A stretch of 35,199 nt of DNA from a bacterium (lineage in GTDB: Bacteria; UBP15; UBA6099; JAJRTR01). Every line of letters starts with the position of its first letter. Position 1 is the first letter of the stretch. Location of the stretch: contig JAJRTR010000067.1 in NCBI GenBank assembly GCA_024278215.1, positions 1-35,199 on the forward strand, given 5' to 3'. The notes below the pieces were generated by a model. That model was not told where the DNA came from. It was given only the letters and a program-made list of their open reading frames with translations, and made no database searches. Positions 12,274-34,196 of the stretch are shown here, piece by piece. Position numbers and translations under genes: made by a program.

Positions 12274-13629
12274 ATGACAGTTCCGGAAGAAAAAGAATCG
12301 CGAATATACCTTGTCAATCCCCCATCAAAACGGCTTGTTCTGCGTGATTACTATTGCTGTACATTCTCGAAAACAGGCTATCTCTGGCAACCGGTTGATC
12401 TGCTTGTGCAGAGTGGTATTCTTTCCGAACAATACAGTGTCGGGATTATTGACGCGGTAGCGGAAAAGACCGGTGTGGCAACGGTGATAAGGACAATCCG
12501 CGACGCGAAACCTGAAGCGGTATATTCGCTCATCGGATCGAAAACGATTGAAACCGACCTGCAATTTCTGAAAACACTTAAGAGCAATACCGGCGCAACA
12601 ATTATTGTGTCCGGCGATGTCGTGCTCCATAAACCAGCAGTGTTTATTGAAAAACATGACTGTATTGATGCTGTGCTTCTTGATTTTACAACCAGAGATA
12701 TTGTCTACTATTTGCATTCCGTGTTCGACGAGATATCAGGTATGGTTTTTCGGACGGAAGATGGAATAATTTCAAAGATAAAATCATCTCGGCATGAATT
12801 CAAATATCCGTTTCCCTTGCATTCAGCTTTTCCTTCAGAAAAGTATAGTTTCCCGTTTGCGCAGCACGGTTATTCTGCGGTGCTCGCTTCGTTCGGCTGT
12901 CCCTTTTCCTGCGCGTTCTGCAATAGTGGTGTAAAGTCAATCGGGTTCAGTTTCCGAGACTTCGATAATCTGACCGATGAAATATCAGGATTGTACGAAA
13001 AAGGAGTCAGGCATATATTTTTCAAGGATATGACTTTCGGAACGAGTCGTTCCCGCCGCGAGAAGTTGTGCAGTTTTCTCAGCGCGGAAACACGGGGCCT
13101 GACATGGAACACTTATGCGAGAGTCGACCTGCTCGATGAAGAGACAATTAAGATGTATTCGGAGGCGGGCTGCCGGCTACTGCAAATGGGGATAGAGACA
13201 GCGGATGCGGACATGGCCGCGGGAGTCGGAAAGAAATTCGATATGGATCACGTCAGAAAAACATTCGCGTCGCTGAAAAGGAATAACATAGCGATCGGAG
13301 CGCACTATATCGTGGGGCTGCCGGGCGAAGTCGTGGCTGGGGCGATGAAAACACTAAGGCTGGCGCGGCGTCTCGATTCCGATTACGCATCATTTAATCT
13401 ATACTCGCCAAGACCGGGATCATCGCTCTATGATGTGGAGAAGACCCGGAAACGAAAACGGTTTGTATGGAAACAGGTATTCAGATTGATTTACATTATG
13501 TTTTATTTGCGGCCCGGATATATATTCGCTTCTCTGCGAAAAGGAAAGGCCGGGGGGGACGAAAGGAACATAAATATCCGCTCGATGATGAATATAATAA
13601 GTTATATTTTGTATCTGCCTGATGAATGA
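12274..13629 (+). CDS. Cobalamin-type (B12-binding-like) radical SAM protein
   Basis: This 451-aa protein has the layout of class B radical SAM enzymes. An N-terminal Rossmann-like region (about 10-170) opens with YLVNPPS, typical of the cobalamin-binding-like domain, but no DxHxxG cobalamin motif is seen. A TIM-barrel radical SAM domain follows with the cluster motif C209-x3-C213-x2-C216 (GCPFSCAFC). After it come the usual MGIETAD and HYIVGLPGE strands. The C-terminal region (about 385-451) is basic and partly hydrophobic. It follows the secreted protein at 10789-12267 by 6 nt. The family includes methyltransferases and lipid-modifying enzymes, so the substrate cannot be named. It is convergent with the minus-strand operon ending at 13692, with no obvious terminator hairpin in the 62-bp gap. 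Confidence 0.85.
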   Translation: MTVPEEKESRIYLVNPPSKRLVLRDYYCCTFSKTGYLWQPVDLLVQSGILSEQYSVGIIDAVAEKTGVATVIRTIRDAKPEAVYSLIGSKTIETDLQFLKTLKSNTGATIIVSGDVVLHKPAVFIEKHDCIDAVLLDFTTRDIVYYLHSVFDEISGMVFRTEDGIISKIKSSRHEFKYPFPLHSAFPSEKYSFPFAQHGYSAVLASFGCPFSCAFCNSGVKSIGFSFRDFDNLTDEISGLYEKGVRHIFFKDMTFGTSRSRREKLCSFLSAETRGLTWNTYARVDLLDEETIKMYSEAGCRLLQMGIETADADMAAGVGKKFDMDHVRKTFASLKRNNIAIGAHYIVGLPGEVVAGAMKTLRLARRLDSDYASFNLYSPRPGSSLYDVEKTRKRKRFVWKQVFRLIYIMFYLRPGYIFASLRKGKAGGDERNINIRSMMNIISYILYLPDE

Positions 13630-13691: not shown

Positions 13692-14939
13692 TCAGATATT
13701 CGCAAGTATATCATTGGTAAACCTGATTTGTGGTTCCACAGATTTGAAACCTTCAAGTACCTTGGCGGCCTCAGTATATAGAGACCTGACTGCTGATCCC
13801 GTATAGCGGTCGAGATTGCCCGCGCTGGGATAGGGAAGAGACAGGACGATTCCTTCGAAGTCTCTGTTTCCGCTGTATTTGTCGACAATTGACTGGATTG
13901 TGTCGCCGAGCGTGCCGATGCTTTCCGGGGTGAGTTTGATATTGACTCTTGATTTGTTTTCATCTTCGAGCAGGTTTTCGAGTCCCTGCAATGTTTGCGA
14001 CAGGCTGTTATCAGTACGTGTATGTGCATCGTGTATTTTCGGGTCCGAGGAAAAAAGTGACACTTCAAATATCAGACTGTCACTTTTGAGTTCGTTATGC
14101 CTTTTTCTGAATGAGGGATTACAGAATATCCGACCATTGGTGTTCACCTGCACGCGAATATCGGGTCTTATCGCCATCACCATTTTCATGACCTTGAGAT
14201 AGCTCTTGTGAAGAGTAGGTTCGCCGCCCTTGATGACCAGTGTTTTCAGTGCTTTTTGTCTTACCTTGCAATATATATATTTTGATAAAGGCATGAAATT
14301 GTGTTTTGAAACTCTTTCATCGAAGTCATAACCTTTCAGATCTGCCGGGATGTGGCATCCGACGCAGTTGTTGTTGCAGTTGCCGTTGATGAATAGATAT
14401 TCGGTAACGAACTTGACTTCCTTGTTGTAGTTTTCTCTTATTTCGGGCTTTTGTGCTTCCTGCCGCACTATTGCCGACAATATGTTGAGAGACCTGAAGT
14501 CAAGTGTGTGGAAGTTGTATTTGAAATAGTTCCTGATGTAATGATAGAGGTGAAAACGCATGTTGAGAAAAGTATCGTAACCGTCGGGGATGTAGGCCAT
14601 AAAAAAGGAAAGGTCTATCCAGTTGTCAATATTCGACGGGCTGTTATCGAGGAGTTCCCAGATCAATTTTATGCCTTTGTCAAACTCCTTTTCCACATAA
14701 TGACAATAGGCTTTGATCGCGACGTAAATGTCGGACCTGAAGTCGGACTTGTAAGACTCGATGAAATCTTTCAAGCGGCGATACTCTTCCGGTTCTCTAT
14801 ACGAGAGCAGTGATATGTGTGTGAAAAAGCTCATATCGTTAACGATATTGAACGAATAGTCGTTCAGATTGCGGTGGTAGGGCATGTCGAAGTTTTTGTT
14901 CAGAACTTCGTTCAGGATGTCGTCATAAGAGTTAATCAT
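13692..14939 (-). CDS. Radical SAM protein with N-terminal helical domain
   Basis: This is a radical SAM enzyme of about 415 aa. The first half (residues 1-170) is helical and resembles TPR-type repeats (YCHYVEKEFDKGIKLIWELLDNSP). The radical SAM domain begins with C188-x3-C192-x2-C195 (CNNNCVGC), followed by VIKGGEPTLH and a TNGR strand. The C-terminal part has no Cys cluster, so no SPASM-type auxiliary site is visible. ATG 14939 was chosen over an in-frame TTG at 14945. It overlaps the stop of the DUF483-like gene by 8 nt, which implies translational coupling. It is the last gene of the His-Xaa-Ser precursor operon. By position it is a candidate additional peptide-modifying enzyme, with the helical domain possibly used for substrate binding (inference). 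Confidence 0.85.
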   Translation of the reverse strand: MINSYDDILNEVLNKNFDMPYHRNLNDYSFNIVNDMSFFTHISLLSYREPEEYRRLKDFIESYKSDFRSDIYVAIKAYCHYVEKEFDKGIKLIWELLDNSPSNIDNWIDLSFFMAYIPDGYDTFLNMRFHLYHYIRNYFKYNFHTLDFRSLNILSAIVRQEAQKPEIRENYNKEVKFVTEYLFINGNCNNNCVGCHIPADLKGYDFDERVSKHNFMPLSKYIYCKVRQKALKTLVIKGGEPTLHKSYLKVMKMVMAIRPDIRVQVNTNGRIFCNPSFRKRHNELKSDSLIFEVSLFSSDPKIHDAHTRTDNSLSQTLQGLENLLEDENKSRVNIKLTPESIGTLGDTIQSIVDKYSGNRDFEGIVLSLPYPSAGNLDRYTGSAVRSLYTEAAKVLEGFKSVEPQIRFTNDILANI

Positions 14940-15909
14940 CGGCAAAGGATATAAAAAACCATGGCTCCGTTTCAGTTTTTAGAATCATTTTTATCATTCG
15001 GTCGCCGGCATGCACGAAAATTCTGTCGTCGAGTATTTCAAGAGTATCGCCCTGCCTGAAGATGTCTTCGAGTATGCCGGGATAGAGATATTTGTCGACA
15101 AAACCACCGTTGTTGTATTTAAGTATGTTGCCCTCGGGCCTGCCGTCGAATGCGTAAATATCTCTTTCTCTGAAAACAAGGAAATTGAGTTTCAAGTGCC
15201 TGTCGATGATCTCGACATAAGTGGGATCATATTGTTGAATGAACGCTCTGAGTTTTGCGGAAAGTTCGGCGGTCGCCGTGCAATCGAAACTGCATGGGAT
15301 GTGGTATAAGTAGCAAAATGAATCTTTGACAAGCGAGTTGCAAAGGTAATTCGGTTTGGTTTTAGTATTTTCGAAAGGTTTCATCAGCGTGTTGCGATAT
15401 GCGTTGTGGTTGTTGAATTTCGCGAAGAAGTCGATGCAGCATTTCGGGTATCCGAGGTGTTCGCCGAACCAGTAATAGTCGATAATCGGTTTTGTGACTA
15501 TCCTGTTATTGACGCAGACAGGATACCAGCCGGTTCGTTTTATACGGTCGAGCGTTTCTCCGGATTTAGAAACGTAGAGATGAACCCGTCCGTAATAGCC
15601 TGCATCTACCGGTGCGCCCTGTGCGATAGTTGTAGTGAGCATTTCGCTGCCGATGGCGGACCTGACATCGTATGACCAGCCTTCGTCGTAAAAAACCGAT
15701 TCCGTTTCGACAACGAGAGAATACTTCTCGCAGGCGCTGATGAATTCGTCCAGCTTGTCCACATATATCCAGTCGTCGAGCGCGGGTTTAAGGTCCGCAA
15801 GCAGCGCATAGTAGAGGAATATCTGTCCGTGGCTGCCTCTTGCCCGGTAAATCTCGTTGAGATAGGTCGGGGAATAATCACCAAAATAAATGTCGCTGTC
15901 ATTAGGCAT
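14932..15909 (-). CDS. DUF483-like protein (325 aa)
   Basis: This protein is of unknown function. The central segment LGYPKCCIDFF (about 165-175), followed about 45 residues later by HIPCSFDC, matches my recollection of the DUF483 family. These paired cysteines suggest a metal or Fe-S site. The N terminus (1-150) is mixed alpha/beta with no recognised motif, and there is no signal peptide or membrane helix. ATG 15909 has GGGA upstream. It lies between radical SAM genes, 66 nt after one and overlapping the next by 8 nt, so it very probably works with them. Candidate roles are a partner, chaperone or accessory redox protein for the peptide-modifying enzymes. That role is inferred from context only. 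Confidence 0.75.
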   Translation of the reverse strand: MPNDSDIYFGDYSPTYLNEIYRARGSHGQIFLYYALLADLKPALDDWIYVDKLDEFISACEKYSLVVETESVFYDEGWSYDVRSAIGSEMLTTTIAQGAPVDAGYYGRVHLYVSKSGETLDRIKRTGWYPVCVNNRIVTKPIIDYYWFGEHLGYPKCCIDFFAKFNNHNAYRNTLMKPFENTKTKPNYLCNSLVKDSFCYLYHIPCSFDCTATAELSAKLRAFIQQYDPTYVEIIDRHLKLNFLVFRERDIYAFDGRPEGNILKYNNGGFVDKYLYPGILEDIFRQGDTLEILDDRIFVHAGDRMIKMILKTETEPWFFISFADD

Positions 15910-15975: not shown

Positions 15976-16884
15976 CTATTTTTTTGTCACGGGTTCAAAT
16001 TCGCTCCATCCGTAAGTCCTCGGATATTGCAGCCATGGCCCCTCGCAGATGTTGTAGTATAAACATTTCTTGCATTTTGGGGCTTTTTCCTTTTCAAAAT
16101 TTTTTCTGATGTATTCGAAATCGTTAACGACATTGGTAACGTCGTTAAGCTTGACGTGCGGGATATAGTTTTCCGACACATGCTTTTCATATCCCTGCAT
16201 GAAGCAGAACGGTACGGCTTCCACAAAGACCTGCACACCTGCTTTTCTTCCTATGTCGATGCCCTTTTTTATATAAGGTACGCAAAGCGATTTTTTCGGG
16301 AGCACGGAAAGTATGTTTTTGTCTGCGCTGCCGAGCACATGCACGAAAGCGTACTGAAACACATCGACTCCAAGCCGCACGAGAAGAGTGGCGAGGTCGG
16401 GGAATGTCCTGAAATTTGTTTTTGTAACGACAGTGTTTATCGAAACCGACTGTTTTCTCTTTGTGAGGTTGTATATTCCTTTTACTGTCTGTCTGTAGCT
16501 GTTGGCGCCGGTCAGGTAATTGTGGCAATATTCGTTAGCGGAGAGCAGTGCCGCGGTAACGGTTTGTATGCGGCCTTTACCAGCGGCGAGGAATTCGTCG
16601 CAGAACTTGCTGTAAGCGAATCGCCGGGCATTGGTCTGGATAAGTATGTTGTATCCGAGTCCGGCAGCATATTCGAGAATTTCCATGCAGTCGTTTCTGA
16701 CAGTGAATTCACCACCGGTCAGCACGACTTCCTGGTAGTCGTCTTTTTCCGCATAGAGGACATCCTTTATCTGCTGCGTTGTGCGGTCGGGAATAAAAAA
16801 TCTTTTGTCGCCGATAACACAATGTTTGCAGTAGTTGTTGCATCTATAACCAACTTTCAGGTCAAGTCTGTTCGGCATTGCCAT
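15976..16884 (-). CDS. Radical SAM protein with C-terminal auxiliary Cys cluster (302 aa)
   Basis: The radical SAM cluster motif lies near the N terminus, C15-x3-C19-x2-C22 (CNNYCKHC). It is followed by VVLTGGEFTVR (the GGE SAM-binding strand) and an IQTNARR strand. The C terminus has FCFMQGYE and then C271, C274 and C280 (CKKCLYYNIC), suggesting a SPASM/twitch-like auxiliary Fe-S cluster as in peptide-modifying enzymes. ATG 16884 has GGAG about 10 nt upstream. It resembles the preceding gene product in layout, including the shared phrase with P-x-C-x-M-x-G-[YF]-E, so the two look like diverged duplicates. It lies 43 nt after that gene within the precursor operon. A role in modifying the His-Xaa-Ser precursors is inferred. 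It might take the place of the classical HxsC, which I could not assign. Confidence 0.88.
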   Translation of the reverse strand: MAMPNRLDLKVGYRCNNYCKHCVIGDKRFFIPDRTTQQIKDVLYAEKDDYQEVVLTGGEFTVRNDCMEILEYAAGLGYNILIQTNARRFAYSKFCDEFLAAGKGRIQTVTAALLSANEYCHNYLTGANSYRQTVKGIYNLTKRKQSVSINTVVTKTNFRTFPDLATLLVRLGVDVFQYAFVHVLGSADKNILSVLPKKSLCVPYIKKGIDIGRKAGVQVFVEAVPFCFMQGYEKHVSENYIPHVKLNDVTNVVNDFEYIRKNFEKEKAPKCKKCLYYNICEGPWLQYPRTYGWSEFEPVTKK

Positions 16885-16927: not shown

Positions 16928-17878
16928 TTACGATGCGCCTGCTAAGATTTTTTCTGAAACTTCTTCTTTCGTTGTGTAAAACACAGGATACAATTCTCTG
17001 GATGTGTAGTGTTCGTCCATGGAATACAAACCTGCACATATTTCGTTCAGGTAGCACACTTTGCAGCAATCGGTTTTCCCGTAAAACCTGTCACCGTCTC
17101 TTTTGTCTACTTCACCTTTTTCGTCCAGGAAAAGTATCCTGCATTTGTCGTTTTTAACGATCCTTCTGGTCTCGGTCGATAAGTGCTCGAAACCGCTCAT
17201 GTAACACAGGGGAACGCGTTCGACGCGGCAGGACATTCCCCATTCTTCGATCAAATTTACCGATCTGTCGAGTTGTATGTCGAAATCATTCAGCATGGGG
17301 ATTGTATCGGTGTTCTGCGAGGCGCGGTTCATCAGCGGGTCGAGGTTATTGAAGGTTATATGTTTTACAAAAGAGAATTTCTTTTTTATGTGGCCGACGA
17401 TACGGCTCAGGTGGTCGGAATTGTACTTGTTGATCGTTATCGCTATATCGAGCTTGATGCCGCCGATTTTTTTTATATTGCGCGCGGCCTGCTCGAAATT
17501 CTTGAGCGAATCCTGATTGCCGGTGAGAAAGCTCTGGACACCGGCATCGTCGGAGTAGACGGACATTGTTACAAGTTTCAGGCCGGAATCCTTAAGTTTT
17601 TTCAGATAGGCCATGTCTGCCAGTTTCTGGCCGTTTGTGATAATGCGACAGCCGAATTTCCTTGAAGCGCAATATTCGATATATTCCGGCAGATCATCGG
17701 ACAGGGTCGGTTCGCCGCCTGTGAGCAGAACGCCGAGGTAATCGCCGTCGGCAATTGTCGAGTCGATAAACTTTTTGCCCTGGGACAATGTTATGGAATT
17801 CTGATTCTCCGGATTTGAACAGAATCTGCATTGCTGGTTACATAAACGTGTGATCTGAAGATATGAAAAACTTGCCAT
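16928..17878 (-). CDS. Radical SAM protein with C-terminal auxiliary Cys cluster (316 aa)
   Basis: This is a radical SAM enzyme with CNQQCRFC near its N terminus and VLLTGGEPTLSDD as the GGE strand. It has an IITNG strand, then PLCYMSGFE and a C-terminal group DCCKVCYLNEIC that suggests a SPASM/twitch auxiliary cluster. The frame is open to a TTG at 17893. ATG 17878 was chosen because AGG-type ribosome binding is as good there and the product then starts just before the conserved barrel strand. It is the first gene after the three His-Xaa-Ser repeat precursors (136-nt gap with a CGGGTT/AACCCG hairpin). With the neighbour at 15976 it is the best candidate for a second maturase. HxsC-like identity is possible but not demonstrable here. 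Confidence 0.88.
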   Translation of the reverse strand: MASFSYLQITRLCNQQCRFCSNPENQNSITLSQGKKFIDSTIADGDYLGVLLTGGEPTLSDDLPEYIEYCASRKFGCRIITNGQKLADMAYLKKLKDSGLKLVTMSVYSDDAGVQSFLTGNQDSLKNFEQAARNIKKIGGIKLDIAITINKYNSDHLSRIVGHIKKKFSFVKHITFNNLDPLMNRASQNTDTIPMLNDFDIQLDRSVNLIEEWGMSCRVERVPLCYMSGFEHLSTETRRIVKNDKCRILFLDEKGEVDKRDGDRFYGKTDCCKVCYLNEICAGLYSMDEHYTSRELYPVFYTTKEEVSEKILAGAS

Positions 17879-17913
17879 AATATTATTTTTCAACCTGATA
17901 TATCTGATCTTAT

Positions 17914-18014: not shown

Positions 18015-18839
18015 TTACCACGATGAATGCGAGCCGTGCGAACCGTGGCTGTTCGCGCTGCTGTGCGAGTTGGCGGCAGCAATGCTGGCGTGAGTATTCG
18101 CAGAGCCGGTGTTGGCGTGTGTGCTAAGGTTCGTGTGCCTGTTTATTGCGTTAGTGCTGGCGTGTGTCGCATAGTTCCTGTGATTATTTATAGCATTGGC
18201 ATTGCCGTGAGTATTGACATTGGTGCTGGCATGGGTGGCGCTTACATTGTTGTGAACACTTGTGCCCGCCGTGTTGACGTGATTGCCGGTAGTCGCGCTT
18301 CCGTGTGCTGTCCATGCGGAGTGTTTGCCTTGCGAGGCGCTGTTGTGCATATTGCCTTTTGTGACCCCGCCGCTCGAGTGTACGGCGGCCGCATTGATCG
18401 CCGGTTTGCTGGAGTGCTTATTTATAGCAGATGTGGCGATATTTTTATTGTAGCTGTTATGGGCGTTTACGGCTGCGGTGCTTGTGTGCGCGCCTGAGCT
18501 TGAGTGCACACTGTTTGCGACCTGGCTGGCGTGCGTGTTTGCGTTGGAATGCTGGGCAATAGCGGCGACACTCGTGTGCCCCGACTGGGCGGCCCTGTTT
18601 GTGTGGGCATTATAACTGACGTGCATACTTTCGTGTGCCGACCTTGCGACCTGCGGGTCGATAAGAATTCCCAGCGCGACGAAAACCATGGCACCGGTCA
18701 CAACATTTTTCGATGTGATCTTCGCCTCTTCTTTTGTGAAATAGCACAGTGCATCTTCAACTATTCCCGGCAGTTTCCTTTTTGGGGACTGTAATCCCGC
18801 CGTGCCGGTCTGCGCTGTTCCTTTCATTCTCTTTTTCAT
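18015..18839 (-). CDS. hxsA: His-Xaa-Ser repeat precursor protein, copy 3 (HxsA-like, 274 aa)
   Basis: This is the third of three tandem HxsA-like precursors. The leader (about residues 1-60) has a basic start, then KLPGIVEDALCYFTKEEAK and a hydrophobic stretch ending ILIDPQ. The rest is almost entirely His-x-[Ser/Thr/Asn] units spaced 6 or 9 residues apart, rich in Ser, Asn and Ala. The repeats break at a central motif TKGNMHNSASQGKH followed by SAWTAH (160-179). They end at HGSHGSHSSW. The ATG at 18839 was preferred to GTG 18848 because AGGTGG sits 8 nt before it and it matches the other copies. By analogy with the predicted Hxs system, the repeats would be modified by radical SAM enzymes and the leader recognised by them. 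The product and its activity are unknown. Confidence 0.85.
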   Translation of the reverse strand: MKKRMKGTAQTGTAGLQSPKRKLPGIVEDALCYFTKEEAKITSKNVVTGAMVFVALGILIDPQVARSAHESMHVSYNAHTNRAAQSGHTSVAAIAQHSNANTHASQVANSVHSSSGAHTSTAAVNAHNSYNKNIATSAINKHSSKPAINAAAVHSSGGVTKGNMHNSASQGKHSAWTAHGSATTGNHVNTAGTSVHNNVSATHASTNVNTHGNANAINNHRNYATHASTNAINRHTNLSTHANTGSANTHASIAAANSHSSANSHGSHGSHSSW

Positions 18840-18866
18840 CTCGCCCACCTTTTAATAAATTTACCT

Positions 18867-18987
18867 GCCGGGACTGTCCTGACCCGGCAAAGCCGGAATC
18901 CAACAGGCCGCATTTTCGTGCCCAAACAAATGCGGTTTGAGCACGGCACACAGAGTTTCATCGTTTCCAAGGTCTACCTCGGAAACG
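18867..18987 (-). promoter_or_regulatory. Highly structured leader upstream of precursor copy 3
   Basis: The 255-nt gap before ATG 18839 contains stacked, partly exclusive hairpins. GCCGGG (18867-18872) can pair with CCCGGC (18883-18888), or CCGGC (18884-18888) with GCCGG (18892-18896). CCGCATTT (18908-18915) can pair with AAATGCGG (18928-18935), or CGTGCCCAAAC (18917-18927) with GTTTGAGCACG (18935-18945, one mismatch). CGTTTCC (18962-18968) pairs with GGAAACG (18981-18987) around AGGT/ACCT. Alternative pairings are typical of attenuators or cis-regulatory RNAs. I recognise no known riboswitch class. Confidence 0.45.
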
Positions 18988-19094
18988 CCTGTAACTGGCA
19001 GCTCCAGCTTTCACCGATCTCTTTTCAGCATTTCTTTACCATCCTGCGTAGAATTTCAGTCGTAAGATACTATACGTCAATTATTATCAATATG

Positions 19095-19928
19095 TTACCA
19101 TGAAGCGTGAGAAGCATGTGAGAAATGCTTGTTAGAACTTACATGATTGTTGATCGCTGTGATATTCGAGTGTGTGTTAACGGCGGCTCTGTTCCCATGT
19201 GAATTGGAGTTGGCATGGGAGTTTATGGCGCCGGTATTGGAATGTCTGTTCACACTGGCATGGTCTGCGGCGGCGACGGTGCTCGCATGGGCGGAAGATG
19301 AAGCGTGATCGGATACGGCGGGGATACTGGTATGTGTGTTTGTACCCGCGGCATTCACATGTGATGTGAGGCTCGAATTGTCGTGAGCAGTCCACGCGGT
19401 GTGTTTGCCCTGCGAGGCGCTGTTGTGCATGTTGCCTTTTGTCAGGCTGTTGTTCGAGTGAACAGCCGCGGCGCTTGTGTGTCCCGAACTGGAGTGTACG
19501 GACCTTACCGGATAGCTTGTAGCGTTGTTGAGGCTTGAATGGTTGTTCAGGGCGGCGGAACTGGTGTGGTCGCTGGCACTGACGTGAGAGTTGATCGCGT
19601 TCGAACTGCGGTGGCTGGTGTCACTAAGATGTTTGTTCACGGCTATCACGCTCGAATGAGTGCTTCTTGCTGCCTGGCTTCCGTGGCTGACGATGTTGGA
19701 ATGGATGTTTGTATGCCAGCCTGCGGCCGGGTCGCTCGCCAGTCCGATGTCCACCACCGCAAGCGTTCCTGTAAGGATGCTCTTCGAGCTGATTTTGGCT
19801 TCTTCATTCTTGAAGTAACCAAGCACATCTTCTTTGATGGAGGGAAGCAATTTACCAGCGCCGGGCTTGAGTTTGCTGTCAGGCGAAATGTTGCCATCCC
19901 TGCCTGTCTTTTTCCTTTTATCCGCCAT
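19095..19928 (-). CDS. hxsA: His-Xaa-Ser repeat precursor protein, copy 2 (HxsA-like, 277 aa)
   Basis: This is the middle HxsA-like precursor. The leader has KLLPSIKEDVLGYFKNEEAK, then ISSKSILTGTLAVVDIGLASDPA, a hydrophobic segment that could span or insert in a membrane or serve as an export signal. The repeat region from about residue 75 has His-x-Ser/Asn units at 9- and 6-residue steps, for example HGS-x6-HSS-x6-HLS-x3-HRS-x6-HVS-x3-HTS. The central motif TKGNMHNSASQGKH followed by TAWTAH starts at residue 163. The C terminus is HFSHASHASW. ATG 19928 has a strong GGAGG site. The leader, the central motif and the tail are what the three copies share best, and the repeats themselves drift. 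Known HxsA proteins are paired with HxsB/C/D, and an HxsB-like gene lies upstream here. Confidence 0.88.
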   Translation of the reverse strand: MADKRKKTGRDGNISPDSKLKPGAGKLLPSIKEDVLGYFKNEEAKISSKSILTGTLAVVDIGLASDPAAGWHTNIHSNIVSHGSQAARSTHSSVIAVNKHLSDTSHRSSNAINSHVSASDHTSSAALNNHSSLNNATSYPVRSVHSSSGHTSAAAVHSNNSLTKGNMHNSASQGKHTAWTAHDNSSLTSHVNAAGTNTHTSIPAVSDHASSSAHASTVAAADHASVNRHSNTGAINSHANSNSHGNRAAVNTHSNITAINNHVSSNKHFSHASHASW

Positions 19929-19973
19929 TTCTATCGCCTCCGGACATCAACTTGTGTTTTGCGTTCTTTAATG

Positions 19974-19987
19974 GAGCCAATTGGCTC
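19974..19987. promoter_or_regulatory. Perfect 14-bp palindrome upstream of precursor copy 2
   Basis: GAGCCAA (19974-19980) meets its exact complement TTGGCTC (19981-19987) with no spacer, 46 bp before ATG 19928. A spacerless palindrome is more like a protein operator than an RNA hairpin. It may therefore mark a separate control point for this precursor. No regulator gene is seen nearby. Confidence 0.35.
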
Positions 19988-20071
19988 AATGATCCGTTCA
20001 ATTCAGGTTACACATCTTGCTTTGTTGCTTTTAAATCTTTGTTGTTTTAAAATCACTGTATTCCCTTATCA

Positions 20072-20893
20072 TTACCATGAAGCGTGCGAGCTGTGTGAAG
20101 AATGCGCATTGGAATTCGAATGAGCGTTCACAGCAGTGATGCTCGAGTGGGCACTGACACCGGTTCCGCTTGTATGACTGTTAAGGCTGTAGTGGTTATT
20201 GATCGCATTCCTGCTGGCATGTCTGCTCGAATTCGAGTGTGCCGCCGCGGCTGAAGCGTTCGAGTGTGTGCTGTAGTTTGTGTGTGCATTTGTAGGCGAC
20301 ATGCTTGTGTGCCTGCTGGATGCGGCCCTGCTGGCATGTGTTGTGGGGGCTGTGTTGCTGTGGTCCGTCCAGGCGGAGTGCGTGCCCTGTGAGGCGCTGT
20401 TGTGCATGTTGCCTTTTGTGAGTGCGCTGTTGGAGTGTGTGTCGACAACGGTGTTTGTGGCTGCCGTACTTGCATGGCTGTTGGAGTTCATGTTCGAATG
20501 ATTGTTGATGCTGTTATGTACATTCACACTGCCTTTGCTGGAATGATCGCTGACAACATTGCTGTGTCTGGACGATGCTGCCATGCTGCCGTGCGAACTT
20601 ATGTTTGTGTGCCTGTTGACGGCGGAAACATTGGAGTGCGAACTGGACCCCGCCTGGTTGATATGCTGAACAACACTGGAATGAGCGCTGGTGTGAATAG
20701 ACGACGCGGGGTCGGAGAGCAGACCGATGGCGGCAATCGCCAGTGTGCCGGTGAGAATGTTTTTGGGCGATATCTTTGCTTCTTCATTGGTGAAATATTC
20801 GAGCACGTCATCCTTCACCGAGGGCAGTATCGTTTTGACACCCTGTTTGACTGAAGCGCTACCGTATACTTCGTTGCGTTTTTTTTCGCTCAT
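20072..20893 (-). CDS. hxsA: His-Xaa-Ser repeat precursor protein, copy 1 (HxsA-like, 273 aa)
   Basis: This is the first precursor after the HxsB-like gene (97-nt gap). The leader has TILPSVKDDVLEYFTNEEAK, then ISPKNILTGTLAIAAIGLLSDPA, nearly the same as copy 2. The repeats follow with His-x-Ser/Asn/Thr units 6 or 9 residues apart, for example HAS-x6-HYS-x3-HTS-x6-HSS-x6-HSN near the C terminus. The central motif TKGNMHNSASQGTH followed by SAWTDH starts at residue 159, and the tail is HSSHSSHASW. ATG 20893 has AAAGGTG upstream. Composition is extreme: mostly Ser, His, Asn, Ala and Thr. Cysteine is lacking, so thioether chemistry like that of sactipeptides is unlikely. Modification at His, Ser or Asn would fit better (inference). 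Confidence 0.88.
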   Translation of the reverse strand: MSEKKRNEVYGSASVKQGVKTILPSVKDDVLEYFTNEEAKISPKNILTGTLAIAAIGLLSDPASSIHTSAHSSVVQHINQAGSSSHSNVSAVNRHTNISSHGSMAASSRHSNVVSDHSSKGSVNVHNSINNHSNMNSNSHASTAATNTVVDTHSNSALTKGNMHNSASQGTHSAWTDHSNTAPTTHASRAASSRHTSMSPTNAHTNYSTHSNASAAAAHSNSSRHASRNAINNHYSLNSHTSGTGVSAHSSITAVNAHSNSNAHSSHSSHASW

Positions 20894-20990: not shown

Positions 20991-22535
20991 TTAATTGCTT
21001 TTCTCGCATTCGCATTCTTTTTCTTCCGGAACATTGTCTCGTTCACTCCCGTTATCCGGGATCACTGCATTGTCGTCCTGCACTCTTTTGCCGACATAGT
21101 CTTCGATCCACTTAAGGAATACGGCACTGTTTTCCGGGATGAGGAGTCGCTCGAACAGGATATCCATAATACCTTCGTTTATTTTGTGCCTTCTTGTAGT
21201 GAAAACATTTGGGGACAACTCACCGCTCTCGTGATAATTCTGCACGGGACATATACCGCAATAAGGTTTATAGACGCACATCGAGCAACCGGGTGTCGAT
21301 TCTATAGTCGAAGCAAGGCATACGGCTTTAGTCGCCTTGTGCATGATCAGGTCGGTGTATGTGGACTCGCCGCAAGTGCCTATCTTGAATGTATCGTCGC
21401 CAAGGTGCCCGAGCATTCGGGCTTCGTCACATGTATACACGTCTCCGTTGTAGTTGTATGCAAGCTGTCCGAGTGCCGCGCCGCACGGAGACTTTAAATC
21501 CACATAACCAGGTTCGTGGCCTGCGATAGCCTTGCTGAGTATGTATATCGCAAATGTCTCCGTGAAGTATGTGCCGCCGTGGTTGATCTCCAGCACATAA
21601 TCAATTATCTCTGCATAAAATTCGAGAAATTCATCTGTGGTTATTCCTATTTTCTCCCAGTTTTTCTGAGCTACGCCCAGCGTGGTGGGGGGCCGCACGA
21701 ATATGGAATTCGACCCAAGCGAACGATATTCGTCTACAATCTCCCTTGCATAAGGCAGTGAATGTTTTGTAACGGTTCCTATCAGCGCCGGGAGTCTCTC
21801 GAGTCCTTCGTTCACATAGCGGTCAAACACTTTTCTGTAGTTTTTAACTACAAGCGCATGATTATCGCCGCGGTTTTTGTTGTGTACGTAGTCCGGTCCG
21901 TCGAGCGACATGCACATCACAACTTCGTTCTCGACAAGGAAATCAAGTTTCTCGTCATCTATCAGGGTGTGGTTTGATACTATGTTGAAACTTATCGACC
22001 TGTTTTTTACTTTATTAACTTCTTTCGCGTATTTGATTATGTGTTTGACAACTTCCCAGTTGAGCAGCGGTTCGCCGCCCTGGAACTCTATGCTGAGAAC
22101 TTCCGAAGGCGCCTGGAAGATCGTGTCCACCACCTTCTCGGCGGTTTCTATCGACATGTCTGTGCCGTGTGTGCTGCCCGGCACAGAATTCGCCTGGCAG
22201 TAAAGACATTTCAGATTGCATCTCAGCGTGGCGATTATGATATGCAGATTGGTAATGTGGGCGGGGTCCCTGAATCGTTTCAGCGCCTTATCCACCACAC
22301 CCGCTCTTGTTTCCTTCGTGAAGATCATATTGTGTTTCTGGAAATCTTCCATCAGCCGGCGATTACCGTAGGGGAGCCCGTTTTCGACAAGGTCTTTGAA
22401 ATCCGGCTCTTCGAGAAATAAGTAATTGCCGTATTCATTAACTATCAGAACATAGCCGCCTATTTTCCTGAAGCTGAAAGGCACCATTTTCTCAAAGTGC
22501 TTTTGTTTAACTTTTTTAATTGCGATGCCGTTCAT
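20991..22535 (-). CDS. hxsB: HxsB-like radical SAM/SPASM peptide maturase (514 aa)
   Basis: The N terminus (about 1-70, with FSFRKIGGYVLIVNEYGNYLFL) resembles the PqqD/RRE-like start typical of HxsB proteins. The radical SAM domain has C106-x3-C110-x2-C113 (CNLKCLYC), then IEFQGGEPLLNW. The SPASM region includes CGAALGQ, YTCDEARML, CSMCVYKPYC and CPVQNYHESG, expected to hold auxiliary Fe-S clusters. The Cys-rich acidic tail (ECECEKSN) is unusual. HxsB enzymes are predicted to modify His-Xaa-Ser repeat proteins, and three such proteins follow immediately downstream. Its ATG overlaps the stop of the 67-aa gene by one base (TAATG), so they are translationally coupled. I am confident it is a radical SAM/SPASM maturase and fairly confident it is HxsB-like. 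Confidence 0.85.
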   Translation of the reverse strand: MNGIAIKKVKQKHFEKMVPFSFRKIGGYVLIVNEYGNYLFLEEPDFKDLVENGLPYGNRRLMEDFQKHNMIFTKETRAGVVDKALKRFRDPAHITNLHIIIATLRCNLKCLYCQANSVPGSTHGTDMSIETAEKVVDTIFQAPSEVLSIEFQGGEPLLNWEVVKHIIKYAKEVNKVKNRSISFNIVSNHTLIDDEKLDFLVENEVVMCMSLDGPDYVHNKNRGDNHALVVKNYRKVFDRYVNEGLERLPALIGTVTKHSLPYAREIVDEYRSLGSNSIFVRPPTTLGVAQKNWEKIGITTDEFLEFYAEIIDYVLEINHGGTYFTETFAIYILSKAIAGHEPGYVDLKSPCGAALGQLAYNYNGDVYTCDEARMLGHLGDDTFKIGTCGESTYTDLIMHKATKAVCLASTIESTPGCSMCVYKPYCGICPVQNYHESGELSPNVFTTRRHKINEGIMDILFERLLIPENSAVFLKWIEDYVGKRVQDDNAVIPDNGSERDNVPEEKECECEKSN

Positions 22536-22738
22536 TACTTTCCGCCCATCTTGTATATCACGTAATTGCAGAATTCATCTATGAAATTTTCATGATCGGA
22601 ATAATCAATATTTTCGACGCTTACGTCAATTTTTCGCCCGGTGTCCGAAATAGTGAAATCAGCGAAACCGCCGTAATCTTTTACTGCTTCTTTTACAGCG
22701 CTCAATTTGTAAATCCTTTTGTCAAAATCAACTTTCAA
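22535..22738 (-). CDS. HxsD-like mini-protein (67 aa)
   Basis: This small acidic protein starts at TTG 22738, with GGAG 6 nt upstream, and overlaps the end of the 190-aa HxsD-like gene by 11 nt. It reads DFDKRIYKLSAVKEAV, then a beta-strand pair (FADFTISDTGRKIDVSVEN), then FIDEFCNYVIYKM. That order (Y-x-L start, strands, then an EFxNYxL-like helix) mirrors the HxsD fold at less than half the length of its neighbour. It is probably a second HxsD-type partner for the HxsB enzyme. The similarity is by pattern only, so it could also be an unrelated peptide-binding protein. Confidence 0.65.
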   Translation of the reverse strand: MKVDFDKRIYKLSAVKEAVKDYGGFADFTISDTGRKIDVSVENIDYSDHENFIDEFCNYVIYKMGGK

Positions 22739-23300
22739 CGACTTCTCCGTTCAATGTCGGTATCACCAGCCCCTTTTTCGCCTGATCCTCGATTTGTTGC
22801 CGGGGGTCAAGTATATTGTCGGGCTGTCCGTATTTTTCTTCCCAGGGCGTCGCGATGCCGAGCGGATCGTCTTCGTAGTCGAACGATTCTTCCTCTTCCT
22901 CGATATCGGCAAGAAGTTTTTCCATTTTGTCGTTGAGTTTGAATACCTCCGCCCTGCTCTCCGTGTCCAGTTCCGTCTGCAAGTTGTCCGAAGCTAGGGA
23001 TATGCGTTCCGGGTTGAACACGATGTGAAATATCTGGTCCCTGACTCTTGATGTGCCTTTTAATATCTTCAATTTCACCGAGTAGTCCAACGCTTCATCC
23101 CGGAACTCACTTTCCAGATTGTCTATGGTTTCTCCGTCTTTTGGTTTAAGCTGCACAATAATTTTTCTGGCGTCGCTTTCGTCGTAATCAACACGCACAT
23201 AGCATTTCGCCAGGAATTTGTGGCATGCGCCCAATATGGCTTCCGCTGGAAACAACTTCGTGCTGAAGTGCATTTCCACACCGTTACCGCCGTTCTTCAT
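22728..23300 (-). CDS. hxsD: HxsD-like protein with extended C terminus (190 aa)
   Basis: This is the first gene of the operon. The N-terminal ~110 residues match what I recall of HxsD: FSTKLFPAEAILGACHKFLAKCYVRVDYD, strands with IIVQLKPK, then EFRDEALDYSVKLKILKGTSRVRDQIFHIVF. The last part corresponds to the family's LLNDYxLRE-type motif. The remaining ~80 residues are an acidic, probably disordered extension (DIEEEEESFDYEDDP), which HxsD proteins usually lack. ATG 23300 has GGGAGGG upstream, and the predicted promoter is about 130 bp upstream. HxsD is a non-enzymatic partner of HxsB/HxsC, possibly aiding substrate recognition. Family assignment is by motif, without a search. Confidence 0.72.
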   Translation of the reverse strand: MKNGGNGVEMHFSTKLFPAEAILGACHKFLAKCYVRVDYDESDARKIIVQLKPKDGETIDNLESEFRDEALDYSVKLKILKGTSRVRDQIFHIVFNPERISLASDNLQTELDTESRAEVFKLNDKMEKLLADIEEEEESFDYEDDPLGIATPWEEKYGQPDNILDPRQQIEDQAKKGLVIPTLNGEVVES

Positions 23301-23460: not shown

Positions 23461-23589
23461 TCTTTCACTGAAGCTTATCGGTTATTCATGCTTTCCATGT
23501 GAAAACAAGCCGCATATTTATTCGAAATCACATTATTGTTATAGTATATCATGTATTGCAGAATATCAGATAGCGGGAAAAGTTCTGAA

Positions 23590-24888
23590 ATGAAGAAAAC
23601 TCATATCGTCTGCCTGCTTGGGCTGTCGAAACTTGACATTTATCATAAGGATACCTATTGCTACGGACTCGATAGAATCGCGGCGCATTCGCTCAAAAAA
23701 GGCCTGAATGCAAGAATACACAAATTAAACAGATATGTGGCAGGAGACATAACAGATGATTTGAAGCAGGTGGTTGAAATATATCCCGACGTACTGGCCT
23801 TATCGGCGTATTTGTGGAATGTGGAAAGAGTCGATTACCTTATATCCAGGACCAGGGAACTGCTCACGGAAACGCTGGTGGTGGTCGGCGGTCCGAGCGC
23901 GGGAAGGTACAGGCAGTTTGCTCCGGAATCGAAAAGCCCCCACTACGTAATTATCGGCGAGGGCGAAAAAGTATTCTTCGATCTTGTTGATTCATACCTG
24001 AACGGCAGGAAAAGATGTTATATCGCGCCGATATTAGAAAAAGAGGAGCTTGTATCATGCCGGGAACCTGTGATTATTGAAGATGCGCCGCCTGTCGCGA
24101 ATCTGGACGAACTGGGGTCGCCGTATACGATGAACCTTGGAATGCCGCCCGGTGACCGCCTGTATATCGAGACAAGCAGGGGATGTCCCCACAGGTGCTC
24201 TTTCTGCATTATGGGAATGTGCCGGGCGCCCCTTAGATTTTTCAGTATGGATTTTCTCAGGGAAGAATTACTCTGGGCAAAAAGCAACGGGAAAACCGAT
24301 GTCGATATTTGCGATGCGGCAATCAATTATAATTCGGAACATGCGGCGGGCTTTTTCAGAACGGCGGAAAGTATTGATCCTGAAGGTCAACTGAGTTTCA
24401 CTTTCGCAGTTCATGCGGATTATATAACGCCGGATCAGATCAGTGAGATGTCGCGTGTGAATGTTTTGCAGGCATCGGTAGGACTGAATTCATTAACACC
24501 CGGGACATTCAAGACAGTTGGGCGCAGAGTGGACAGAGTAAAGTTTGCAAGAAAAATCGATATGCTGAATACGGTCACAAGGCCCTCTGTTTCAGTTATA
24601 ATGGGGCTTCCGGGCGATACTGTGGAAGGATTTCGTGAGACGCTGGAATTCTGTGCGGAGTTGGATGCCGATATAAATATTTTTGAGCTCAAGGTTTTTC
24701 ACGATACCGGCTACTACAGGGATATCGAGAGATATAAGATTGTGTTTGATGAGGGCAACAGCATGAATGTTGTGTCGACGTTCAGCTACACGGAATCCGA
24801 TCTTGAAGAGATGCGGGCGGCGGCGGCGGAGTACGCCAGGAGGTTCGACAGGTTCAGTGCAGGCGATGTCGAACAAGTATGGAAATGA
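23590..24888 (+). CDS. Cobalamin-type (B12-binding-like) radical SAM protein
   Basis: This 432-aa class B radical SAM enzyme has an N-terminal cobalamin-binding-like Rossmann domain (about 1-150, VVVGGPSAGRY and IIGEGEKVFFDL). The radical SAM domain has C199-x3-C203-x2-C206 (CPHRCSFC) preceded by IETSRG. SVIMGLPGDT and a C-terminal helical part follow. The start was set at ATG 23590; the frame is open to 23551, but that extension adds nothing conserved. No DxHxxG motif is present, as in many members that still bind cobalamin. It is divergent from the His-Xaa-Ser operon, and a 289-bp gap with promoters separates them. It may belong to the same functional island, but nothing links it directly. 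Confidence 0.85.
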   Translation: MKKTHIVCLLGLSKLDIYHKDTYCYGLDRIAAHSLKKGLNARIHKLNRYVAGDITDDLKQVVEIYPDVLALSAYLWNVERVDYLISRTRELLTETLVVVGGPSAGRYRQFAPESKSPHYVIIGEGEKVFFDLVDSYLNGRKRCYIAPILEKEELVSCREPVIIEDAPPVANLDELGSPYTMNLGMPPGDRLYIETSRGCPHRCSFCIMGMCRAPLRFFSMDFLREELLWAKSNGKTDVDICDAAINYNSEHAAGFFRTAESIDPEGQLSFTFAVHADYITPDQISEMSRVNVLQASVGLNSLTPGTFKTVGRRVDRVKFARKIDMLNTVTRPSVSVIMGLPGDTVEGFRETLEFCAELDADINIFELKVFHDTGYYRDIERYKIVFDEGNSMNVVSTFSYTESDLEEMRAAAAEYARRFDRFSAGDVEQVWK

Positions 24889-26096: not shown

Positions 26097-27584
26097 TCAT
26101 GCGTCGAGCCCGAAGAATTTTTTGAGGTAGTGTTTGTAGCGCGCGGCGTACTGGAGCATCATGATCTCGGCGTCGGGCGACTTGCGCATCAGGAGCCGCG
26201 CGGCGGTGTATGCTATGCCGGGGATGACGGATGTCGGGAAACGTCGATACCAGCGCCGCCGGATGATTTTGTCTATCCAGCGCTTCGGCAGTATCATGAT
26301 AAGCACGAACAGCAGGTAGAACTGTCGCTGGAGCAGCGGCGACGCGCTGTCGATGGTGATCGAGCCGAGGTCGTCGCCCGAGTTGATACGGGCTACATCC
26401 TCAGCGGTCAGCACGCCGTGGTCCATTGCGATTTGAATTATTTCGGTGCTCGGAAAGTATCGCAGCCAGAACACTTTCAATATGTCGGGCCGGACTTCGT
26501 TGTAGAACTCGGCCATCTCGAGCAGGTCGTCCTCGTTTTCTGTCGGAAAGTTGGTAATGTTTTCGGCGGCGACGAATATATTCCTGCTTTTGAGAATCTC
26601 AATCGAGCGCCTTATCCTGTCGGTCGTTTCACGGCGGTTGTAAATGTTGCGGCGTTTTTCCTGGTTGATCGTCTGCACGCCGATGTCCACCTTGCCACAG
26701 CCCGACTCCGCCAGAAGGTCGGCGTATTCCTCGGTGACTATGTTGGGATTCGTGCAGGCGATATAGGGCAGTCCGACCCGCCGGTTGTATTTTTCGACGA
26801 ATTCTTCCAGCCATTTTTTGTTGAATCCGAATACTTCGTCATAGAAATTGATGTGCGGCTCGCCGTACTTCTTTTTAGCAGCCGCGAGTTCTTCGATGAC
26901 GTTGTCCACGCTTCGCAGCCGGACATAGCCTTTGAGCCCGTAGATTCTTTTCAAGAGGTTATTATTGCAGAAAGTGCATTTGTAGGGACAGCCGCGCGAT
27001 GCCATGATGGTGTAGATGTCGGTGGGTTTCATGGGCGTCTTTTCGTAAAGCGTTTTGTCGGGGAAGGGGAGTGTGTCCAGGTCCGCGATCAGCGGTCTGA
27101 TGGGGTTTAATCGAGCGTTGCCGTTTTCGAGCGTGCCGAGATTTTCTATCGCCGGGTCTATTCCGCCGGTGCTCATGACCGAGTCGATGATGTCCGCGAA
27201 AGCGCCTTCGCCCTCGCCGCGCACGACTGCGTCCACACAGTCGAGTTCGAGAATGTTTTCGGGTACGGAAGTGATGTGAATGTTGCCCGCAATTATCGGG
27301 GCGTCCGTGTGCGGGCGGATCATGGCGGCTAACTCGCGGAACCACGGCACATCGCTTGTCACTACCGAGAAAGCGAGCAGGTCGGGTTTTTCGGCGAGGA
27401 CTTCCCTGACGACTTTTTTTCTCATGTTGAAGAGCCGCGCGAGCGGGCCGACGGTCACAAACGAATCGTCGAACAATCTCGGGTCGAACACCATCGATAC
27501 TTCGCAGCCCTTTGCTTTCGCCACAGCCGAAAGGTACTCGATTGCGAGGCTGCTGAACGCCGGGTATACAAATACTATTTTCAT
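26097..27584 (-). CDS. Cobalamin-type (B12-binding-like) radical SAM protein
   Basis: This 495-aa class B radical SAM enzyme starts MKIVFVYPAFSSL, the usual opening of the cobalamin-binding-like domain (to about 145, with IIAGNIHITSVPENIL and VVRGEGEGAF). The radical SAM cluster is C199-x3-C203-x2-C206 (CPYKCTFC) after IMASRG, followed by an FYDEVFGFNKKW strand and IGVQTIN. The C-terminal ~110 residues are basic and partly hydrophobic, which suggests membrane association. The frame is open to 27665, but ATG 27584 is the conserved start. The tetraether-synthase-like gene lies 145 nt upstream on the same strand, and the pair may act together on lipids (inference). Substrate unknown. Confidence 0.86.
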   Translation of the reverse strand: MKIVFVYPAFSSLAIEYLSAVAKAKGCEVSMVFDPRLFDDSFVTVGPLARLFNMRKKVVREVLAEKPDLLAFSVVTSDVPWFRELAAMIRPHTDAPIIAGNIHITSVPENILELDCVDAVVRGEGEGAFADIIDSVMSTGGIDPAIENLGTLENGNARLNPIRPLIADLDTLPFPDKTLYEKTPMKPTDIYTIMASRGCPYKCTFCNNNLLKRIYGLKGYVRLRSVDNVIEELAAAKKKYGEPHINFYDEVFGFNKKWLEEFVEKYNRRVGLPYIACTNPNIVTEEYADLLAESGCGKVDIGVQTINQEKRRNIYNRRETTDRIRRSIEILKSRNIFVAAENITNFPTENEDDLLEMAEFYNEVRPDILKVFWLRYFPSTEIIQIAMDHGVLTAEDVARINSGDDLGSITIDSASPLLQRQFYLLFVLIMILPKRWIDKIIRRRWYRRFPTSVIPGIAYTAARLLMRKSPDAEIMMLQYAARYKHYLKKFFGLDA

Positions 27585-27729
27585 AGGTCTGTTTTTATCC
27601 GAATTCCTGCATTTGTGTTTCGACAAGCCTGTAAAGCGGTTTGCCGTTGCCGCACTGCCAACCACAGTGGTGAAATATGCTGATAATATATCGAATCCAT
27701 ATCATATTACAGGTCGAGTCTTTGTCGTT

Positions 27730-28977
27730 TCAATCCGGTTTCGCCGGCTCGCCTTCCGGCAGCCAGCAGAAAGGCCGGTATTTTGTATTATATATGCAGG
27801 GCGGTATGAAACCGCGCTCGGCCATATAAACTTTATTGCAACGGTTCGCATCTACGAGGTCTATGGTGTCGTGTTGCCGGAAGTCCTCGACCGTCACCAG
27901 CTTGATACTGCCTGTGAGCGTGATCGCGTCCCAGTGTCGCAGAGCGCCCACGAGCAGGGCGAGTTCCGCGAATCCGCGCGGGTTGAGCAGAGCGCCAGAG
28001 GGCGTGAAGTACCTGTTCACCGGGAACGGGCCGCCGGGGCGGTTGTGCAGCAGCATCATGTGGAAACAGCTTTTCTGCTTGAAATCCTGGTGTCCCGTGA
28101 GTTTAAAAAGCCGGTTGCCGATAGCGCGTGTGTGCATGAAATCTTTCATCGTGACGCGCCCGCCCGTGCCCGATTCGATAGCGCGCAGGACATCGGGTGC
28201 GGTCGTGTCGAACTCCTCGCCGAAGTCGTCGCGCCCGACGCACGACAGAACCGTGCAGCCGAGGTGCATGATGTTGTCGCTCGCCATCATCAGGTCTATC
28301 ATCCGGCCAAGTTCACCGTCGTTGAGTCCCCTGACTACCATGCAGGCGAGACAGATTTTTATTCCCGATTCGGTAAGTACGGCGAGTGCTTTCTCCTTTA
28401 TCGCAACCAGGTCGCGGCCCCGTGTTTTTTTATAGATGGTGTCGGAAAAGCCGTCGAACTGCAGCAGCACCCATCCGAGCCCGGCATCATGAAGTGTGTC
28501 GACAAAGGCGCGGTCTGTCAGCTTTATCCCGTTGGACGCCATCTTGACGACAAAACCCATGCCGGTAACAGCGCGGATGAGGTCGGGCAGGTCTTTGCGC
28601 ACAGTCGGTTCGCCGCCGCACAGGAGAATCGTGGGAAGGGGCTCCGGCCAGTTTTCGAGACGCGCGCATATTTCGCCGATCGCGGGATCGCGTTTTTTTC
28701 TCGTGTGCGTGTTCGTGAAGCAGGCTGTGCAATTGAGATTGCAGCGCTCGGTGACATCCACCATAATTGTTTTCACGTGGCCGACGTGGCGGCGGCAGTC
28801 GAGGCAGCGCGTGATGTCGCAATCCGTGAAGTCATGGTCTGTTCGAGTTGTGCCTGCGACGCAGCGGTGGTAAAAACCGGCGTCACGGGCGAGCAGAAGG
28901 TCGAACTCTCCGTGGCGGGTGCATCGCTTGCGGATATAAACACTGCCGCCGCGCTCCACGAGTTCGGCGTCGAGCAC
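27730..28977 (-). CDS. Tetraether-synthase-like radical SAM protein (COG1964-like), start disrupted
   Basis: The radical SAM domain has C79-x3-C83-x2-C86 (CNLNCTAC) after DVTER. The phrases CGGEPTVRKDLPDLI, ASNGIKL, LLQFDGFSDTIYKKTRGRDL and VVRGLNDGELG resemble the COG1964/Tes-MJ0619 group, whose studied members join lipid chains. The N terminus has the group's extra Cys/His module (YIRKRCTRHGEF, then CLDCRR). The GTG at 28977 yields 415 aa but cuts off an in-frame LCPECDAV just upstream (28998-28975), which belongs to that module. The frame is open to 29067 without ATG, GTG or TTG. An ATG at 29057 in another frame would join after a one-base change in a T run. The true start is therefore uncertain; a frameshift or odd start codon is likely. 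Confidence 0.75.
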   Translation of the reverse strand: MLDAELVERGGSVYIRKRCTRHGEFDLLLARDAGFYHRCVAGTTRTDHDFTDCDITRCLDCRRHVGHVKTIMVDVTERCNLNCTACFTNTHTRKKRDPAIGEICARLENWPEPLPTILLCGGEPTVRKDLPDLIRAVTGMGFVVKMASNGIKLTDRAFVDTLHDAGLGWVLLQFDGFSDTIYKKTRGRDLVAIKEKALAVLTESGIKICLACMVVRGLNDGELGRMIDLMMASDNIMHLGCTVLSCVGRDDFGEEFDTTAPDVLRAIESGTGGRVTMKDFMHTRAIGNRLFKLTGHQDFKQKSCFHMMLLHNRPGGPFPVNRYFTPSGALLNPRGFAELALLVGALRHWDAITLTGSIKLVTVEDFRQHDTIDLVDANRCNKVYMAERGFIPPCIYNTKYRPFCWLPEGEPAKPD

Positions 28978-29485: not shown

Positions 29486-29509
29486 CATAGAGACCAATGG
29501 AGAGAATTG

Positions 29510-33572: not shown

Positions 33573-34196
33573 TCAACCGTCCTGTTCGGCCCGCGGAGGC
33601 AGACCAAGTATTTCCGGCTTTACTTTTTTTATGAAGCTGATTGCGCCGACCGCTATCAGCCCTTCGACAATCATAATAGGCAAATGGGCCACGACGATAA
33701 GTCGCGCTGTCTGGACAAACGATTCCTCGGTGAAGACTAGTTCAGCCGCCACCAGCAACCCGCTGAGCATCACAGGCAACGCGCCGCACAGAAACGCGCC
33801 CGTCACCGAGACCGCATTGTTTCCGCTGAAAATCATCCTGCTGAACAAGAACCGGCACATCACCGCCGGAAATGCCATGTTGAACGTGTTCACTCCCAGC
33901 ACGGTGATACCGCCGAACTGGAATAAAACAGCCTGCATGAACAGCGCGACAAGCATTGACGGAAAAGCCGCCCAACCGAGCAGAAGCCCGTTTAATCCGT
34001 TGAGAATAAGGTGCGCGCTCGACGGGCCGATAGGCACATGAATGAAAGAAGCGACAAAAAACGCCGACGACAGCAACGCCACTTTCGGTATGTCTTCCTG
34101 CTTCGTTTTCTTGAGTCCTATCGCTACGCCCACTACGGCCAGCGCCGCGCCGCCGATCAGTATCGGTGGCGAAAGGACTCCTTCCGAGATGTGCAT
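33573..34196 (-). CDS. cbiM: CbiM/NikM substrate-binding membrane component of ECF transporter
   Basis: This 207-aa membrane protein binds Ni2+ or Co2+ in ECF-type uptake systems. It begins MHISEGVLSPP, whose second-residue His is the hallmark metal ligand. HVPIGPSSAHLILNGLNGLLLGW and FGGITVLGVNTFNMAFPA follow, all conserved in the family, with about six membrane helices. It ends just before the nikL-like start (1-nt gap). A direct repeat similar to Geobacter-type NikR operators lies about 50 bp upstream, so nickel is favoured over cobalt. No B12 riboswitch sequence is apparent upstream, which fits. The family usually needs CbiQ and CbiO; neither is encoded on either side within this window. 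Confidence 0.92.
   Translation of the reverse strand: MHISEGVLSPPILIGGAALAVVGVAIGLKKTKQEDIPKVALLSSAFFVASFIHVPIGPSSAHLILNGLNGLLLGWAAFPSMLVALFMQAVLFQFGGITVLGVNTFNMAFPAVMCRFLFSRMIFSGNNAVSVTGAFLCGALPVMLSGLLVAAELVFTEESFVQTARLIVVAHLPIMIVEGLIAVGAISFIKKVKPEILGLPPRAEQDG

Follow-up and report, generated by a model that had tools for sequence, protein, structure and literature searches.

The His-Xaa-Ser (Hxs) system has reportedly been recognised since 2011, when Haft and Basu are said to have described it, and its families HxsA, HxsA2, HxsA3, HxsA4, HxsB, HxsC and HxsD are represented in NCBIfam. In the present study, a stretch of 35,199 nucleotides (contig JAJRTR010000067.1 of assembly GCA_024278215.1, hereafter the window) from a bacterium of the GTDB lineage UBP15 was analysed, in which three neighbouring genes each encode a long HxsA-type protein with about 28 His. 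The locus almost certainly belongs to the Hxs system; it is read as such, with unusual precursors, because an HxsB above its cut-off, an HxsD-like protein, a divergent HxsD and relatives of HxsC are adjacent. Since the three proteins are located beside Hxs radical S-adenosylmethionine (SAM) enzymes, they are probably unusual Hxs substrates, and this triplicated long form is probably an unusual variant within a known system whose chemistry is unsolved.

Like described Hxs loci, the window carries an HxsB equivalog, an HxsD-like protein and HxsC-family relatives, and its precursors have an FLxxEEGK-type leader motif with a hydrophobic stretch, HxS units and a terminal HxSHxSW-like tail. The precursors are, however, about 270 amino acids (aa) long, whereas canonical ones mostly have about 80-130, their His are spaced 9/6 in a 15-residue unit instead of 3, and the unit is H-x-[S/N] where the canonical one is mostly H-x-S. 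Three tandem paralogues, three divergent HxsC-like enzymes and a DUF483-like protein also set the locus apart, and the window proteins stay under all curated HxsA and HxsC cut-offs.

Two other groups of modified peptides can be compared. In triceptides, three-residue cyclophane-forming radical SAM enzymes (3-CyFEs: XncB, OscB, MscB, HaaB, YhhB) join an aromatic ring at position i to the C-beta at i+2; the +2 acceptors are Asn, Asp, Arg, Ser and Ala, and His-Ala, His-Arg and Phe-Ser links are documented (PMC11002830). The window shares with them an aromatic residue at i, one of Asn/Ser/Ala/Arg/Asp at i+2 and adjacent radical SAM/SPASM enzymes, whereas their enzymes are from other families and their models are missed by HxsB. 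The TvgA/TvgB system (TVGG repeats, poly-cyclopropylglycine) likewise has a repetitive core, on which a single radical SAM enzyme acts repeatedly, but it differs in the modified residue, the enzyme family and the cluster.

Histidine spacing in three long precursors

The three precursor genes, numbered by their position in the cluster, are as follows.

20072..20893, minus strand: long HxsA-type precursor at position 1 (copy 1), 273 aa, 28 His; of a seemingly old paralogue lineage, its branch weakly supported
19095..19928, minus strand: long HxsA-type precursor at position 2 (copy 2), 277 aa, 28 His
18015..18848, minus strand: long HxsA-type precursor at position 3 (copy 3), 277 aa, 27 His, GTG start; clade support 100/99

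The first-pass annotation of the window had placed the His of these proteins on a three-residue lattice with steps of 9 or 6. Such steps indeed make up 18/27 His-His intervals in copy 1, 18/27 in copy 2 and 16/26 in copy 3, and the string that it quoted, HGS-x6-HSS-x6-HLS-x3-HRS-x6-HVS-x3-HTS, is contained in copy 2. Steps divisible by 3 number 20/27, 21/27 and 20/26, against means of 7.5-7.7 when each repeat domain was shuffled separately 20,000 times, and none of the 20,000 shuffles matched the observed count in any of the three open reading frames. The strongest His autocorrelation in these frames is found at lag 15, where 11-13 pairs compare with an expectation of about 3.5; this lag dominates over 3 because the steps alternate between 9 and 6. 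The further claim of a single register modulo 3 stands in part: the steps are mostly multiples of 3, but the register is interrupted rather than continuous, by initial steps of 4 and by steps of 11, 8, 6 and 8 around a conserved central segment. The largest residue class holds 22/27 His in copy 3 and 23/28 in copy 2; in copy 1, which slips one further residue, 17/28 His are in one class. The segment that breaks the lattice is present in all copies and reads TKGNMHNSASQGxHxAWTxH in the window proteins. It contains (A2 columns 181-195) the sole His column with Ala at +2 in 18/18 homologues, as H-[ST]-A-[WY]. The C termini carry the canonical HxSHxSW-type tail; one position-2 precursor elsewhere (L062:10834-11664) ends in NHSSNADAGSG, not HxSHASW, and is possibly a frameshift or a degraded copy.

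The unit itself had been written as His-x-Ser. Ser at +2 is common, but Asn is about as frequent, and H-x-[S/N] describes the unit better: across 18 homologues, +2 is Ser or Asn in 455/487 cases, and both residues are seen in 25/28 His columns. Short HxsA proteins have mainly Ser at this place (233 Ser, 21 Asn). The consensus of 96 distinct 15-residue units is H-x-[NS]-[VT]-[AG]-A-[VI]-N-x-H-x-[NS]-[AV]-N-[ST].

The lattice extends beyond the His. Between lattice-spaced His of the 18 homologues, 51% of the non-His lattice positions are hydrophobic, compared with 9% off the lattice; in the window proteins, 43/63 hydrophobic residues are on the lattice, compared with 15 +/- 3 when residues were permuted inside each inter-His segment, and this count was reached in 0/5000 permutations. 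The suggestion that the lattice has a physical meaning is thus strengthened by the hydrophobic residues that share it and by a His conservation of about 94% while the remainder drifts. The regularity might instead be a functionless by-product of composition bias or of recent tandem duplication of DNA, as the proteins are of low complexity, with abundant A, S, N, T and H. Shuffled sequences fail to reproduce it, the ratio of nonsynonymous to synonymous substitution rates (dN/dS) is 0.11-0.22, paralogues whose identity elsewhere is only 36-39% retain the spacing, and no DNA tandem repeat of 45-bp period was detected, so recent duplication does not explain the spacing; we regard this reading as scarcely credible. 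That the empty lattice slots are degenerate canonical HxS triplets was also considered and is not clearly supported, the +2 residue of the non-His triplets being mainly Ala or mixed rather than Ser/Asn.

Relatives, conservation and the short form

Scanning genome contigs for HxsB gave 25 loci. Three of them (L001-L003) have the gene order of the window and three long precursors each, L002 ending inside the cluster. The long form was not found among the 22 further HxsB loci, where all recognisable HxsA are 3-spaced in an HxS array (230/272 His steps equal 3), and viral contigs contained no relative. In the phylum of the window genome, taken as seven genomes, long precursors are present in five genomes at six loci, always as tandem triplets with common His positions. 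Genome G003 carries two triplets, and the triplet of G004, a genome 67% complete, has no HxsB detected alongside. The tree of the 18 long precursors splits by gene position, needing the minimum number of label changes; support is 100/99 for the position-3 clade and weaker for positions 1 and 2. From this tree the three paralogue lineages appear to be old.

In the 18 homologues, the probability of finding a residue again in the same column of another sequence is 0.94 for His, the most conserved residue; apart from Trp, none of the others exceeds 0.55. The window paralogues have 26-27 of their 27-28 His in common, with 36-39% identity at other positions, and dN/dS between relatives is 0.11-0.22. 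Loss of the spacing, which the first-pass annotation had proposed to look for in homologues, is seen in none of them: 18/18 keep it, since the His are retained across paralogues that have diverged elsewhere and dN/dS is low. About 28 His fixed across three old paralogues whose remainder drifts mark the residues needed by the chemistry or the function.

The window genome has a second Hxs locus (L034, G000:C205:1-12000), whose canonical short HxsA has His at every third residue, ends in HGSHGSHGSW and exceeds the HxsA4 cut-off. Its enzymes are related to those of the window, HxsB being 40% identical and the relatives of the radical SAM proteins A and B (listed below) 48% and 44%. One genome thus holds two natural substrate formats, short with 3-spacing and long with 9/6-spacing, and the variant shows that His at every third residue is not required and that +2 may be Ser or Asn. 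Judged by sequence, the long precursors form a putative long HxsA subfamily beyond the reach of curated models.

At the N terminus of all long precursors (18/18), a hydrophobic stretch comes after the motif [YF][FI]xxEEAK. An F[LM]xx[ED]EGK-type motif is present at the equivalent place in nearly all of the short HxsA inspected, a likeness that suggests common recognition and possibly common export. In many short HxsA the first HxS is preceded by a small-x-small sequence reminiscent of a signal-peptidase site; it is less clear in the long forms.

Maturation genes and proposed modification

The maturation genes of the cluster are listed here with their model scores.

20991..22535, minus strand: HxsB radical SAM maturase with SPASM-like C-terminal cysteines (TIGR03978, 470.8 bits, cut-off 370)
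22535..22738, minus strand: HxsD-like small protein (NF038315, 66.5 bits, cut-off 41)
22728..23300, minus strand: divergent HxsD (TIGR03976, 36.8 bits, below the cut-off of 50; joins a 25-member HxsD alignment)
16928..17893, minus strand: HxsC-like radical SAM protein A (TIGR03977, 88.4 bits, below the cut-off of 267.9)
15976..16884, minus strand: HxsC/HxsC4-like radical SAM protein B (NF038332, 99.9 bits, and TIGR03977, 89.7 bits, both below cut-off)
13692..14945, minus strand: HxsC-like radical SAM protein C (TIGR03977, 83.5 bits, below cut-off; syntenic in L001 and L003)
14932..15909, minus strand: conserved DUF483-like cluster protein with a YPKCC motif (PF04467, 24.2 bits, cut-off 25)

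All cluster genes run in one direction, the upstream ones with small gaps or overlaps, and gaps of 97-246 bp surround the precursors. In the syntenic loci protein B is 77% identical, and the DUF483-like protein is 65% identical and syntenic in L001 and L003. With HxsB, HxsD-like and HxsC-like proteins adjoining, the earlier description of the three proteins as precursors is borne out.

We consider it fairly probable that the long HxsA-type precursors are matured by the adjacent HxsB, the three HxsC-like enzymes and the HxsD-type helpers, with modification at H-x-[S/N]. The gene order kept in L001-L003 and the occurrence of the same enzyme families beside a short HxsA in the same genome support the Hxs reading, together with the leader motif common to long and short forms and the His retained across old paralogues. 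The leader ([YF]FxxEE[AG]K with the hydrophobic stretch) would recruit the enzymes and would probably direct export or membrane attachment, and every H-x-[S/N] would be a radical-SAM modification site on an extended, triplet-periodic substrate. The three-residue lattice would then be the periodicity of the extended substrate: canonical (HxS)n has His in every slot, whereas here two of five slots would be taken by His and three of five by mainly aliphatic or small residues. With this slot use in the 15-residue unit, modified His would lie 9/6 apart on a long, probably extracytoplasmic, chain.

The most plausible link would run from the His ring (i) to the C-beta of Ser/Asn (i+2), as in three-residue cyclophanes, and this step taken alone is put forward tentatively and by analogy. 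The precursors fit the 3-CyFE motif (aromatic at i, Asn/Ser/Asp/Arg/Ala at i+2), and a +2 residue that is freely either Ser or Asn would be more in keeping with such an acceptor than with a role specific to Ser. The long form being a natural variant, the His(i) to Ser/Asn(i+2) modification is directly testable.

Several points weigh against this account. The precursors fall below every curated HxsA2/A3/A4 model (best 20.9 bits, cut-off 65), as do the other long homologues, and the HxsC equivalog TIGR03977 is not reached, the three relatives scoring 84-90 bits. None of the cluster genes could be recognised as encoding a dedicated protease or exporter, and the functional form might be the entire protein and not a processed peptide. 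The literature searched contains no chemistry of any Hxs product, so we infer the modification of the His. HxsB scores 52-59 bits against the GrrM/OscB, YhhB and AmcB models, whose cut-offs are 310-445, and the HxsC-like proteins also miss the curated cyclophane-maturase models; HxsB may therefore be said to work like a cyclophane maturase, not to be one.

The closest solved relative of HxsB by sequence is 5wgg, the thioether-forming CteB, whose structure has been described (PMC8326336). The AlphaFold2 model of HxsD has moderate confidence (predicted local distance difference test, pLDDT, 78), is ordered b-a-b-b-a followed by helices, and resembles only widespread alpha/beta arrangements. A PqqD-like recognition element in HxsD or in the HxsB N-terminus looked plausible by eye and was without support in fold and sequence searches; the alignment of HxsB N-termini gave no match to a RiPP recognition element (RiPP, ribosomally synthesised and post-translationally modified peptide) in PDB or Pfam. 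A scan for promoters and terminators gave no excess over shuffles.

Fold, fibre-like proteins and neighbouring genes

The first-pass annotation had proposed that the regular His and Ser line one face of a solenoid or an extended triplet helix. A beta-solenoid or similar repeat fold formed by a monomer, with 15-residue coils and His/Ser aligned on its faces, would agree with the dominance of lag 15 in the homologues and with the periodic hydrophobic residues. AlphaFold2, run on the 18-sequence alignment with unmodified residues only, gave a mean pLDDT of 33.8 for a long precursor, with two leader helices only, a pLDDT of about 25-40 in the repeat and no strands; a period of 3 is unlike the alternation expected for beta strands, and a PDB sequence search with the 18-protein profile found no relative. 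Solenoid and triplet helix are thus left unsupported for the unmodified chain, but the mature protein may carry modifications; we consider a monomeric repeat fold very improbable.

Alternatively, the three proteins may form an in-register heterotrimeric or multichain fibre, whose His ladder would bind metal between chains, radical SAM modification being secondary. Each of the six loci (6/6) has three long paralogues, neither more nor fewer, which nearly agree in length and match in their His; the lineages are old, and a secreted fibre-like protein is encoded beside or inside the cluster at four loci, two with triplets and two with a short HxsA. Trimeric phage fibres hold HxH iron sites (PMC6116203), and phage and pyocin fibres of this kind resemble the precursors in their conserved His (pairs in the fibres) on long repetitive proteins; some Hxs loci of the phylum also have fibre-like genes nearby. 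On the other hand, they have no homology to the precursors, the motif is HxS and not HxH, Ser and Asn swap freely at +2, no monomer fold is predicted, the window cluster has no fibre gene, and trimerisation is here conjectural; such a fibre is unlikely in our view. A more specific form, in which the equal-length triplet would be an in-register heterotrimeric surface fibre with about 28 modified H-x-[S/N] layers as a metal- or electron-handling ladder, associated with fibre proteins in this phylum, is distinctly unlikely. Maturation of long HxsA-type substrates by the adjacent enzymes remains the preferred reading.

The fibre-like proteins are encoded directly upstream of the triplet in two loci (L061:5605-8763 and L062:12548-15720), before a short HxsA (L039:2778-5558) and before the HxsD gene (L034:3-2114). 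They share an NYQG start and repeated TGDTMTG/GDGSGLTG, and among the loci read they occur in this phylum only. Their resemblance to fibres is based on motifs by eye, and their sole Pfam match is a chlorovirus glycoprotein repeat.

A third HxsD-family protein of the window genome (L071:7724-8260, G000:C47) lies near several radical SAM/B12 genes, with no HxS-repeat protein in sight. In the window, four more radical SAM proteins flank the cluster (12274-13629, 23551-24888, 26097-27665 and 27730-28977), two of which have B12-binding domains above the Pfam cut-off. About 10 kb past the Hxs cluster, a CbiM cobalt/nickel uptake protein is encoded at 33573-34196 (200.9 bits), possibly by coincidence. 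A single protein at 29507-32134 combines three NlpC/P60 domains with a long Glu/Pro/Ala-rich linker.

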